From a candidate division KSB1 bacterium (GTDB taxonomy: Bacteria; Zhuqueibacterota; JdFR-76; DREG01): a DNA stretch of 41,184 nt. A program made the position numbers and the translations under genes. Positions 33,197 to 37,102 of this stretch are shown here, in pieces (within the stretch, counting starts at the first letter, position 1; each line of letters starts with the position of its first letter). The stretch is taken from positions 1-41,184 of the forward strand of contig JADFJB010000024.1 of the NCBI GenBank assembly GCA_022566355.1. The letters are read 5' to 3'. Below the pieces are notes generated by a model that ran no database searches, was not told the DNA's origin, and saw only the letters and a list, made by a program, of their open reading frames with translations.

Positions 33197-35512
33197 TTAC
33201 CTGGCCTGGAAACTAGAAATCTTCCAGTTGCCATTGATTTGTTCGATTGTCCACGTATATGCGTAACTAATGGGTGGTCTTCTTCTGTTCTTATTGTCGA
33301 TATAGAAAATCCGCATTAAGATATCCACCGTCGCGCTATTTTCGCCGAATTTAATACTTTCTTGTGCGATTTGAACCCTTTGAATATTGATACGTCTAAA
33401 AGTCTTGCGCCATTTGTCCCTTTCGGATTGGATTAAATTAGTAAATAATGAGCGAACACCCTCAATATTCTTTTTCTCTAGACTGCCTTTAAATTTGTCA
33501 ATGACGCTTTTAACGCCTTGCTCAATGATAGATATTCGCTCTCTTTCACTATCAGTTTTTTCTTTTTCCATTAATGCAGCTTCAGTAACCACTTGACCAA
33601 AATTTAGCTCTGCATCTTTAAAATGGCTGGCAGCAGCGTTAAAATCATTTTGACTGTATGCCGTATTGCCATCCGTCTCAAATTGAATGGCTTTTTGGTA
33701 TTTTGCGTTTGTGAAATCATTTTGTTGAACATTTTCTTTTGCGGCATTCATCGAGGTCTTGGCATTGTTAGCGTTGTCTTTTAGTGTTGCCAGGATATTA
33801 ACTTTGGCTTCCGCATAAAGCATTTTTGCATTCTCGAAAGAAAACAACGCCGCATTAAAATCTTTGGCATCAAATTCACCATCACCCTTTTCTTCACGTG
33901 CAATTGCTTGTTGGTATTGATTGTTTCTTTTCTTATCTGTTTGACTACCCGGAAGTTGCGTTTTGATATCCATCATATCTGACCGCATTTGTACAACCCT
34001 GCTTTCTATGTTGGGTTTTGCTGGCCGTTCAATATTCACGCTGGATGCCGCTTCGTCTCTTGCTTTTTGGTAACCATCCTTTGCCATTGTAAACGCCATT
34101 TTTGCTGCACGCAAACTTTCTTTACCACCCGCAGTCATTTTTTCGTTTCCAACAATCTCTTGTTGAATGGCGTCATCGTAATAAACGTTTGCTTTTATAT
34201 TCGCATCTATCTTATCAGCCGCTGTTTTCTCCACTAACATTTCCGTTCGAATTTCTACAACTTCCTGTCTAATTTTGTTAAGAGCTTCTGTTTCCGCTTC
34301 AGTTTTACTTTGGGTCTGTGCTAATTTTGCCGGCATGCCTGGGGCAGACTGCCAGGATAGCACGCTGAATGCGGAGGCCAATACGATTACTGAAGCGTAA
34401 AGTAATACTTCCACACCTCTAAGTTTGTCAGGTCCTTTCCGGCCATGAAAGTAAGCAATGATTCCAGCAATTGGAAATCCCGATAATATACAAATTAGAA
34501 TCACTTGATGCCATCTTGGGTCAAATTTGTATTGATCGATAAAATAGGGGCCTACTTCGAACAGACCTATTGAAACCATCAGGTACGATCCAACAATTGG
34601 TATAAATTTACGCCGGCGAATTTCCCGGATAAATCGGGAAGTAAGGGACTCTTTGGAAATCGGGCGTTTCTGGTCAGGTATATCGACTATTGTAAGGGTT
34701 AATTCTTCAGGTTGTATTTTATTTAATTTATTGAGAAACGAGTTAGCATCTTCGGTTCGAACTTCTCTGTCTTTTTCAAGCAATCCTTCTATAAGTGAAA
34801 ATAGTGGATTAGAGATGTTTCGAATTGCAGCCATCCCGCTTGCATCTTCATTGAGGATCTTAAAAAGGATCGCGGCATCGTAATCTCCGGTAAAAGGTCT
34901 ATTACCGGTCAAAACTTCGATTAATATTACACCAAGAGACCATAAATCAGAGCGTGCGTCAACAATTTCACCTCTCACTTGTTCAGGCGACATATACGAA
35001 AGCGTTCCCAAAGTTGACCCACTCTGGGTTACCTGGGTGTGTTCTTCTCGACGTGCCAGGCCAAAATCCATTATTTTCACGATCCCGTTTTGATCCGTCA
35101 TAATGTTGGCCGGCTTCAAGTCTCTATGCACGATACCCTTCTTGTGTGCTGCCGCAAGTCCACGTACCACTTGCTTGGCCAATTCGATTGTTTGTTTCAC
35201 AGACAATGGTCCTTTAGCCAGCCGCGTTTCCAAAGATTCTCCCTCTACCAATGCCATAGCTATGTACGATTGGTTTTGGAATTCTCCAAATTCAAAGATG
35301 GTGCAGATGTTGGGGTGATCCAATGCCGAGGCCGCTTTCGCTTCATTGTGAAATCTTTTTTTTGATTCCTCATTTTCAAGTAAATGAGGAGGAAGGAACT
35401 TGAGAGCTACATCCCGGTCTAAGGTTGTGTCATGAGCTCGATAAACCACTCCCATCCCGCCACGACCTATTTCTTCTACTATTTTATAATGAGAAATTGA
35501 CTTGCCTATCAT
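33197..35512 (-). CDS. Membrane Ser/Thr protein kinase with periplasmic-side coiled repeats and NTF2-like C-terminal domain
   Basis: 771 residues. Complete Hanks kinase: G-loop GRGGMGVVY (16-24), ATP-anchor Lys38 in VALKFL, Glu57, HRDLKPAN (129-136, catalytic Asp131), DFG (149-151), SPEQ activation segment and DARSDLWSLGVIL. Three membrane helices about 300-400 (FIPIVGSYLMVSIGLF, VILICILSGFPIAGIIAYF, VLLYASVIVLASAFSVLSW) follow, then an Ala/Lys/Glu-rich helical region with TPR-like duplicates (NDFTNAKYQKAIQFETDGN; QNDFNAAASHFKDAE) and a C-terminal NTF2/SnoaL-like domain about 670-771 (VIDKFKGSLEKKNIEGVRSL ... WTIEQINGNWKISSF). The C-terminal part likely lies outside the cytoplasm and senses a ligand. 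Its start overlaps the stop of a 41-codon kinase stub upstream (ATGA). It may control the surface-protein genes downstream in the same run. Confidence 0.9.
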   Translation of the reverse strand: MIGKSISHYKIVEEIGRGGMGVVYRAHDTTLDRDVALKFLPPHLLENEESKKRFHNEAKAASALDHPNICTIFEFGEFQNQSYIAMALVEGESLETRLAKGPLSVKQTIELAKQVVRGLAAAHKKGIVHRDLKPANIMTDQNGIVKIMDFGLARREEHTQVTQSGSTLGTLSYMSPEQVRGEIVDARSDLWSLGVILIEVLTGNRPFTGDYDAAILFKILNEDASGMAAIRNISNPLFSLIEGLLEKDREVRTEDANSFLNKLNKIQPEELTLTIVDIPDQKRPISKESLTSRFIREIRRRKFIPIVGSYLMVSIGLFEVGPYFIDQYKFDPRWHQVILICILSGFPIAGIIAYFHGRKGPDKLRGVEVLLYASVIVLASAFSVLSWQSAPGMPAKLAQTQSKTEAETEALNKIRQEVVEIRTEMLVEKTAADKIDANIKANVYYDDAIQQEIVGNEKMTAGGKESLRAAKMAFTMAKDGYQKARDEAASSVNIERPAKPNIESRVVQMRSDMMDIKTQLPGSQTDKKRNNQYQQAIAREEKGDGEFDAKDFNAALFSFENAKMLYAEAKVNILATLKDNANNAKTSMNAAKENVQQNDFTNAKYQKAIQFETDGNTAYSQNDFNAAASHFKDAELNFGQVVTEAALMEKEKTDSERERISIIEQGVKSVIDKFKGSLEKKNIEGVRSLFTNLIQSERDKWRKTFRRINIQRVQIAQESIKFGENSATVDILMRIFYIDNKNRRRPPISYAYTWTIEQINGNWKISSFQAR

Positions 35513-35634
35513 AGGCTCATCCAGGAATTTATTTCTTTCTGTCTGCGGGACGACTTGTCCCGATCTGTCGGGAAGTTCCCGCCACGGCCAATCTCCTCCA
35601 AGATTTTGTAATGAGAGATAGTTTTACCGATCAT
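35509..35634 (-). pseudogene. Kinase 5'-end stub, a truncated second kinase start
   Basis: The minus strand from 35634 reads MIGKTISHYKILEEIGRGG, nearly the start of the intact kinase (MIGKSISHYKIVEEIGRGG), then runs into GC-rich palindromic DNA (GGGACGACTTGTCCC and CCCGATCTGTCGGG hairpins) and stops after 41 codons. Its TGA overlaps the ATG of the real kinase. It has synonymous and non-synonymous differences from the real gene, so it is a relic of a paralogue and not a recent tandem copy. As written it might act as a leader peptide whose translation feeds into the kinase start. Confidence 0.6.
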
Positions 35635-35700
35635 AACTGAGTTTCTTTCGATTTAATTAACCTGGTCTATTCATAAACTTTGTCACTGGTTTATAAAACT

Positions 35701-35885
35701 GTCATTCCCGTCCCGCCTGGTCGGGATTATCGGGAATCTTGTTACACAGGCCCATAAACTCCCGACAAACTTGTGCTCGTACGTTTTTTACGGGTAAGCA
35801 TTCGGGGGTGACATTTTTGGTGTTCTCGGACAGCCTGAAAGTATTGGGGAACCACACCATGCAGCATCCTGGGCGACGGGATGAC
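35701..35885 (+). repeat. MITE-like palindromic repeat C, full copy
   Basis: GTCATTCCCGTCCCGCC (35701-35717) is matched in reverse complement by GGGCGACGGGATGAC (35871-35885), giving terminal inverted repeats. The interior contains CTTGTGCTCGTACGTTTTT, then GGGTAAGCATTCGGGGG, shared with 9505-9545. ORFs that cross it (one starts at 35739) are taken as accidental. Confidence 0.55.
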
Positions 35886-35969
35886 ATTGGATGCTATAAG
35901 CTTAAAAACATGATTCATGAATTATCCAGGTTAATTAATAAAACTTATTTTCTTCTTTTTTTTCAATAC

Positions 35970-36004
35970 TCTTTGTGCCTTTGTGCCTTTGTGCCTTTGT
36001 GGAT
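35970..36004 (+). repeat. Short tandem repeat CTTTGTGC
   Basis: About four units of CTTTGTGC/CTTTGTGG at 35970-36004. Such tracts are frequent in intergenic DNA of environmental bacteria; no function is inferred. From 35886 to 36240 nothing else is seen. Confidence 0.6.
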
Positions 36005-36587: not shown

Positions 36588-36824
36588 ATGACAGAATTTG
36601 AAAAAATTACTTCACACATACTTTCTCTCCCTACGGAGAAAAGGGCGGAATTAGCTGAAATTCTAATTCAAAGCCTCGATGAAAAAGAAAACGAAGATGT
36701 TAAAGGAGCTTGGTTATTGGAAATTAAACACCGAGATCAAGAAATCAGATCTGGAACCGCGGAAATGAAATCAGCGCAAGAAGTTCTTCACGAAGCTCGT
36801 GAACAGCTAAGATGTATGAAATAG
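36588..36824 (+). CDS. Addiction-module antitoxin (TIGR02574/RelB-like)
   Basis: 78 residues. ITSHILSLPTEKRAELAEIL and LIQSLDE form the N-terminal helical part, and AWLLEIKHRDQEIRSGTAEM then KSAQEVLHEAREQL is the conserved C-terminal half of this family. These antitoxins pair with ParE/RelE toxins, and the toxin gene starts 13 bases before this stop. Expected to be an autorepressing antitoxin. Confidence 0.88.
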   Translation: MTEFEKITSHILSLPTEKRAELAEILIQSLDEKENEDVKGAWLLEIKHRDQEIRSGTAEMKSAQEVLHEAREQLRCMK

Positions 36825-37102
36825 CAATTCATGTTGACGCAGAAAGAGAGTTAAATGCTGCTGCGCTGTATTATGAAGAAAGTGTTGAAGGATTAGGACA
36901 GCAGTTTTTGGATGAATTCGAAGAAGCCATCTCTCAAATACAAAAATTCCCTAAAGCATCTCCAATTTACGAAGAAGAATACAGACGTTATCTTCTGAAA
37001 CGATTTCCATTTGGCGTCATCTACCGAATTGATGGTGACGATCTTTTTATCATCGCGATTGCCCACCTTAAAAGAAAGCCAAACTACTGGGTATCTCGAT
37101 AG
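36812..37102 (+). CDS. ParE/RelE-family toxin
   Basis: 96 residues. IAIHVDAERELNAAALYYEE, then LGQQFLDEFEEAISQIQKFP, RRYLLKRFPFGVIYRIDGD and IAIAHLKRKPNYWVSR match the ParE/RelE fold with the conserved RxFPFxVxY strand and the final AHxxRxPxYW motif. It is full length and intact, unlike the other toxins in this window. ParE members poison gyrase and RelE members cut ribosome-bound mRNA; AHxxRxPxYW fits the ParE-like branch. Translation is coupled to the antitoxin by the 13-base overlap. Confidence 0.88.
   Translation: MYEIAIHVDAERELNAAALYYEESVEGLGQQFLDEFEEAISQIQKFPKASPIYEEEYRRYLLKRFPFGVIYRIDGDDLFIIAIAHLKRKPNYWVSR

Follow-up and report, generated by a model that had tools for sequence, protein, structure and literature searches.

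In a stretch of 41,184 nucleotides from a candidate division KSB1 bacterium, hereafter called the window, a short reading frame opens like a protein kinase, passes through a hairpin, and stops on the start codon of an intact kinase gene. The question raised by this locus is how such a frame, here called the stub, came to stand before the gene and whether it serves it. The most likely reading, to which we give slightly better than even chances, is that repeated grafting of kinase 5' ends left the stub behind as a relic, with incidental coupling to the kinase.

The stub, its hairpin, and the intact kinase

The preliminary description had reported a truncated kinase start in frame with a hairpin, with a TGA overlapping the ATG of the intact kinase, and this anatomy (Table 1) is confirmed by the coordinates of the reading frames and by residue identity: MIGKTISHYKILEEIGRGG of the stub and MIGKSISHYKIVEEIGRGG of the kinase start agree at 17 of 19 residues, more than chance gives, and the stop codon at 35511-35509 overlaps the start codon at 35512-35510 in the motif ATGA. 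Across these 57 bases, stub and kinase start are separated by 12 synonymous and 2 nonsynonymous changes. The kinase has a Pkinase domain (Pfam PF00069, residues 9-253, E 9.5e-56), the spacer before its ATG contains a weak match to a ribosome-binding site (-3.8; shuffled, -2.1), and the 46-base piece holding the hairpin has a predicted folding energy of -21.2 kcal/mol. The stub combines homology to intact kinase starts with truncation, as a relic would, and its frame is open to the kinase start with stop and start close together (ATGA), as that of a leader would be.

Table 1. Features of the window around the stub, with positions counted from its first nucleotide
Feature	Position	Strand	Description
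Stub reading frame	35509..35634	-	41 codons, MIGKTISHYKILEEIGRGGNFPTDRDKSSRRQKEINSWMSL; kinase start, hairpin, and spacer in one frame
Kinase-homologous part of stub	35578..35634	-	57 bases (19 codons), MIGKTISHYKILEEIGRGG; homologous to kinase 5' ends
Hairpin, long form	35545..35582	-	5' arm GCGGGA inside glycine-loop codons; 3' arm TCCCGC
Spacer	35513..35544	-	32 bases, from stub hairpin to kinase ATG
Intact protein kinase	33197..35512	-	771 amino acids; translation starts MIGKSISHYKIVEEIGRGGMGVVY
MITE-like element	35653..35938	.	286 bp; 25-base inverted ends, 84% complementary; 18 bases upstream of stub ATG

The MITE-like element has a 91% copy ahead of another kinase (L035, contig C12), and its ends have matches at many loci of this genome. 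Elsewhere in the window, a putative addiction-module antitoxin and a ParE-type toxin form a pair at 36588-37102 on the plus strand, and direct repeats, perhaps the other duplicated gene ends to which the preliminary description alluded, occur at 1929-2067/4526-4664 (91% identity) and 12970-13059/15661-15750 (83%).

Recurrence of the unit among kinase genes

The stub is no one-off of the window. When the stub DNA and the kinase N terminus served as queries against the whole genome (213 contigs, 4.6 Mb), stub plus hairpin turned up at four further kinase loci, C15, C121, C35, and C80, two of them tandem: two stubs precede the kinase at C15 and three at C121 (s0, which is degenerate, s1, and s2), the single stub at C35 is followed by a truncated kinase, and at C80 the hairpin is the long form of the window, the stub is broken by a MITE-like insert and also contains another short repeat, and the kinase is interrupted in frame by TAG. 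The distance from stub to next start is 122 bases in the window, 95 and 116 at C15, 96, 95, and 95 at C121, and 94 at C35. Covariance models of six and then of fourteen units were run against 82 genomes of the phylum, and the second separated stub-plus-hairpin units (at least 77.6 bits) from the next match (66.7 bits); above this score gap lie 12 places in 7 of the 82 genomes (G000, G022, G030, G042, G068, G078, and G081, this genome included), with 10 of the 14 training units recovered by construction or within the same arrays and C80 absent from the matches. An exact pattern of stub and short hairpin, which misses long hairpins like that of the window, was matched at six places among 84,980 species (one genome per species), all in uncultured MAGs, three titled candidate division KSB1 and one each Calditrichia, Calditrichota, and "bacterium"; four of the six are the loci already found in G022, G030, G068, and G081, and L132 and L137 represent two MAGs with the unit beyond the seven phylum genomes. 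As far as the sequences allow, close relatives lack the stub, an absence that the preliminary description had counted against its reading: the two same-family genomes G001 and G002 score nowhere above the gap, although G001 is best matched over kinase residues 175-765, up to a contig edge that leaves the orthologous 5' end out of view. The stub is a member of a recurrent class of kinase 5' ends that stand before kinases with a palindromic glycine-loop junction in genomes of KSB1 and Calditrichota type, an arrangement of which we found no report among the open-access papers listed for the search terms used.

The hairpin had also been called foreign DNA, for which its distribution offers no support. 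The start of the long hairpin, with at most one mismatch, occurs at three places in this genome, each behind a kinase start. Across the 82 genomes, GCGGGNACNNGTCCCGC occurs at 8 places (two here, both kinase stubs, one at the G068 stub, and five elsewhere), and GGGAACYTGTCCCG occurs at 6, three of them at stubs. The non-stub places inspected were those of G002, G037, and G056 and the flank of that in G012, with G011, G031, and G051 left out; by eye, those in G002, G037, and G056 fall within long open frames that do not resemble kinases. Twelve distinct places with the tail ACNTGTCCCGY were found in 231 overlapping loci (747,552 bases) picked for kinases, nine of them at kinase stubs, including one on the opposite strand. 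A dispersed repeat of the REP or RPE type, for which many copies across the genome would be expected, is not supported by these few places, all of which in this genome are behind kinase starts.

Other sequences were observed within kinase 5' ends. At L032, L040, and L042 (contigs C168, C115, and C35 of this genome), CCGCCCAGGCGGGA replaces in frame the codons around CATTA, and the kinase starts read IG(K/Q)TIPPRRDKIL. Palindromic elements with ends like TTTACCCTGTGAGATAA or CACCCCGTGAGATA are present at L033 (C80), L040 (C115), L060 (C15:17398), and L175 (G081), the first three being placed at CATTAC.

Two arrays show a gradient of divergence. At L137 (Calditrichota), units of 100, 121, and 100 bases precede the kinase. 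The second and third hardly differ from the kinase start, the three tails are alike except for a 21-base difference in the hairpin, and the first stub (u0) is diverged, with a stop codon after nine residues. At C121, s0 is decayed, s1 and s2 differ by 13 synonymous and 3 nonsynonymous changes, and s2 and the kinase differ by 5 synonymous changes and no nonsynonymous ones. Since inner units are near-identical to the kinase start and outer ones are diverged, the inner units look like recent tandem duplications and the outer ones like copies in decay. Between stub and next start, synonymous and nonsynonymous differences range from 12:2 in the window to 13:8 in G078, and much of this divergence may predate truncation.

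It is very improbable that the stub records the plain loss of a tandem paralogue through one deletion, independent of the other loci. Several kinases do occur on one contig, as on C24 of G014, and short GGCGGGA repeats could mediate a deletion, but the identical junction and hairpin recur at unrelated loci and in unrelated genomes, which weakens this account, and the expected intermediate, an intact pair of complete kinases with the hairpin between them, was not seen in the loci examined.

A quick-method tree of 42 kinase domains, with the first residues left out, scatters the eight stub-bearing kinases: 8 changes are needed (mean of 7.5 with shuffled labels), and the starred branches force at least 5. 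We therefore consider that the unit arose or moved repeatedly, and a single ancient orthologous leader is not supported. Movement in the strict sense, in which a self-restoring cassette of hairpin, spacer, start codon, and 57 bases passes among kinase genes, enters at GGCGGGA, and supplies a new N terminus, is rather unlikely. In its favor, the start behind the hairpin is of the type x-E-[LI]-G-R-G-G at 7 of 12 stub loci (the window, G022, G030, G042, G078, L132, and L137), while the kinases nearest by body begin, by eye, with EKLGEGG like the stubs (L104 with L119, L107 with L133, and L132 with L072/L089), a pattern suggesting, on comparison of the sequences, that the start behind the hairpin was grafted onto the kinase body; CGT encodes the Arg in 7 of 7 stub-bearing GRGG kinases versus 2 of 9 others, and the confinement of the hairpin to kinase starts in this genome points the same way. 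However, the N-terminal type switches in stub-less kinases too (L075, L081, L094, and L122), the nearest kinase to L109, L023, is residue by residue no closer to the L109 stub than to the L109 kinase start, and no single nearest body exists for L106, which lies in a group without resolved branching, or for the window kinase, which has no resolved neighbor. Between different loci of one genome, the tails lack near-identity and so give no sign of recent movement, none of three other kinase starts with Y1-transposase-like frames is a hairpin-stub locus, and we know of no enzyme for such a cassette.

Signals for and against translation of the stub

A selected leader peptide, which we regard as unlikely, would explain the stub differently: the stub would be translated, the ribosome would open the hairpin and pass to the kinase at the overlapping stop and start, and kinase synthesis would follow that of the stub. 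A tail was scored as open if the stub frame had no stop farther than 6 bases ahead of the next start, and 14 tails were scored (C121 s0 and s2 and L137 u0 and u1 were left out). Thirteen are open in the stub frame, against 8.0 expected with the spacer shuffled (P ~0.004 if independent), with G081 as the sole closed tail; with the window set aside, since this trait was the reason for its choice, the count is 12 of 13 (P ~0.008), and with one tail per genome, again without the window, it is 8 of 9 (P ~0.05). When whole frames are considered, 15 of the 17 hairpin units whose stub is readable are open; those of L137 u0 and G081 are closed, and the C80 stub is broken and not readable, all three of which tell against a leader. 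The phase for a stop overlapping or just preceding the next start is found at 9 of 13 hairpin loci (the window, C15, C121 except s0, C80, for which it was worked out by hand from a 59-base tail, G030, G042, G068, G078, and L132) and is absent from C35, G022, G081, and L137; a hairpin-less stub on contig C475 of G056 is also in this phase, which brings the count to 10 of 14 loci. The open tails, the overlap phase, and the purely synonymous divergence of C121 s2 from its kinase argue for a leader, but ATGAT makes a stop near the start almost automatic, the stub loci are scattered and not orthologous on the kinase tree, and an Rfam search of positions 35400-36000 gave no match up to E 1.

Initiation signals also weigh against a leader. 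There is no ribosome-binding site before the window stub (-0.9 versus -1.8 shuffled), and the MITE-like element that ends 18 bases upstream means that any original leader there is gone. Six of 11 first stubs have a ribosome-site score better than shuffled; the other five, the window included, do not. The ribosome-site gain averages -2.7 at next starts and -2.3 at 43 intact kinases, and this resemblance implies that the kinase can start translation on its own.

Pairing of the 3' arm with the glycine-loop codons of stub or kinase could make a switch. Pairing of the arm with its own kinase beats that with permuted partners (-15.0 versus -13.9, p 0.007, equal lengths, 13 units), which favors a leader, although shared ancestry of tail and start could give this result as well. 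A general preference of the arm for the kinase glycine loop is rejected: it appeared in 13 of 14 cases with the kinase piece three bases longer, but in only 7 of 17 at equal lengths. It is quite improbable that both ideas hold together, with a self-restoring mini-cassette, built of the first 19 codons of a kinase gene, entering the glycine-loop codons, regrafting the start, and multiplying in tandem, while the choice of the arm between stub and kinase is set by stub translation. Translational coupling of the window stub to the kinase is possible.

Orphan 5' ends and the origin of the stub

Six genomes selected as rich in matches or orphans were searched with a 41-residue N-terminal and a 41-residue catalytic-loop query, of which the N-terminal query is the better conserved and hence the more readily detected, giving 150 and 96 places, respectively. 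An N terminus was called an orphan if no catalytic loop lay 150 to 900 bases behind it or another N-terminal match lay between; by this definition, under which some frameshifted fragments were counted twice, 72 of the 150 N-terminal places are orphans, versus 19 of the 96 catalytic-loop places without an N terminus. In this genome the counts are 21 and 0, and in G042, G033, G012, G058, and G065 as well, orphan 5' ends greatly outnumber orphan catalytic-loop fragments. Orphan places covering at least 30 query residues, counted by hand, number 34 N-terminal and 15 catalytic; five of each, known to lie too near a contig end, were removed (the lengths of other contigs are known only in part). Of the 29 and 10 that remain, 29 and 3 are in frames of fewer than 300 codons. 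Both the full and the filtered counts indicate that, in fragment form, kinase 5' ends persist or spread far more than mid-gene sequence does.

A role of orphan 5' ends as promoter donors is not borne out. Of 51 orphans examined, 40 with at least 800 bases past the stub stop were judged (L181, L170, and L208, with kinase frames or an in-frame fusion, were left out); a same-strand frame of at least 90 amino acids starts between -50 and +150 bases from the stub stop in 19 of the 40, compared with 14 of 40 ordinary gene ends, which is no clear excess. A promoter scan gave chance level only, and short peptides behind three orphans were below the cutoff or without hits in Pfam.

Some kinase starts adjoin other frames. 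At L004, L174, and L114, in three genomes, a frame like the C terminus of REP-associated Y1 transposases terminates at the kinase start or no more than 30 bases from it; in Pfam, the L004 fragment matched Y1_Tnp below the cutoff (E 0.0026), and the longer L174 frame was unmatched, which we nevertheless take to be transposase-like from its HVH motif and C-terminal likeness. At L208 (G033, contig C291), a kinase start continues in frame, as a fusion, into the remainder of a 589-codon frame that presumably encodes an amidohydrolase lipoprotein, and the 61 residues submitted had no Pfam hit.

The preliminary description had set a selected leader against a relic coupled to its kinase by luck. The relic gains from the orphan 5' ends, the decayed copies, and the missing ribosome-binding site before the window stub; "by luck" is weakened by the 13 open tails of 14. 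The reading that we prefer, a relic of recurrent 5'-end grafting, draws on what was observed, namely, the anatomy of the unit, its recurrence and tandem arrays, the scattering on the tree, and the orphan 5' excess. The kinase genes of the family are present in many copies per genome with nearly the same first 57 bases, and TCCCGC is a sequence on which their GC-rich glycine-loop DNA can fold back. At this point, recombination or template switching may repeatedly set a hairpin, a spacer with a ribosome-binding site, a start codon, and 57 bases before a kinase body, so that the former 5' end stays upstream as a short reading frame; the stub would then be what remains of the 5' end of a different kinase copy, with the palindromic junction GGCGGGA linking it to the present kinase. 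Once in place, a unit of ~95 to 120 bp can multiply in tandem, and the intact kinase starts from its own ATG. We infer the template-switch step, a window stub that is at most weakly translated, and a stop/start overlap that gives only incidental coupling. A related proposal, duplication of the local untranslated region together with the 5' end, in which the spacer would copy the region upstream of the stub, is unsupported for first stubs (mean score of 5.8 with the own region and 5.5 with others, only G068 standing out at 10). Against the grafting relic stand the 13 open tails, the 5:0 divergence of C121 s2 from its kinase, and the ribosome-binding sites of 6 of 11 first stubs; moreover, random deletion leaves the conserved 3' arm in unrelated genomes unexplained, and the loci examined held no intermediate in which a complete kinase, the hairpin, and a second kinase follow one another.

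If the stub is only a relic, it documents recurrent rearrangement at one codon in a large kinase family of poorly known bacterial groups, together with orphan 5' gene ends in strong excess, which would not be predicted from ordinary decay. Were it translated, the N terminus of the regulated protein itself would have given rise to a leader peptide, time and again, with the tandem copies as natural dose variants.

Among known arrangements, pseudogene fragments and partial gene duplications can leave a truncated paralogue adjoining an intact gene; the stub differs in its fixed end point at one codon, its recurrence in MAGs of two named groups, and the strong 5'-end excess. Rickettsia palindromic elements and MITEs within genes resemble the stub in that palindromic DNA is read in frame inside a protein gene; a review covers such elements (PMC10969869). 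The stub hairpin differs in that one arm consists of codons of the kinase itself and in that the searches did not show it to be dispersed. REP and REPIN elements are moved by RAYT transposases (PMC3116915, PMC2817692), and the likeness lies in the hairpins and in the transposase-like frames at three kinase starts; in contrast to them, the stub hairpin is not a repeated sequence, and the stub loci showed no transposase. Closest in layout are bacterial upstream reading frames and leader peptides with translational coupling, such as the short iraD frame, which, in the account cited, likewise ends at the start codon of the main gene (PMC5574718); unlike that frame as described there, the KSB1 stub has no ribosome-binding site in the window, is tandem at some loci, and encodes a peptide that copies the N terminus of the main protein.
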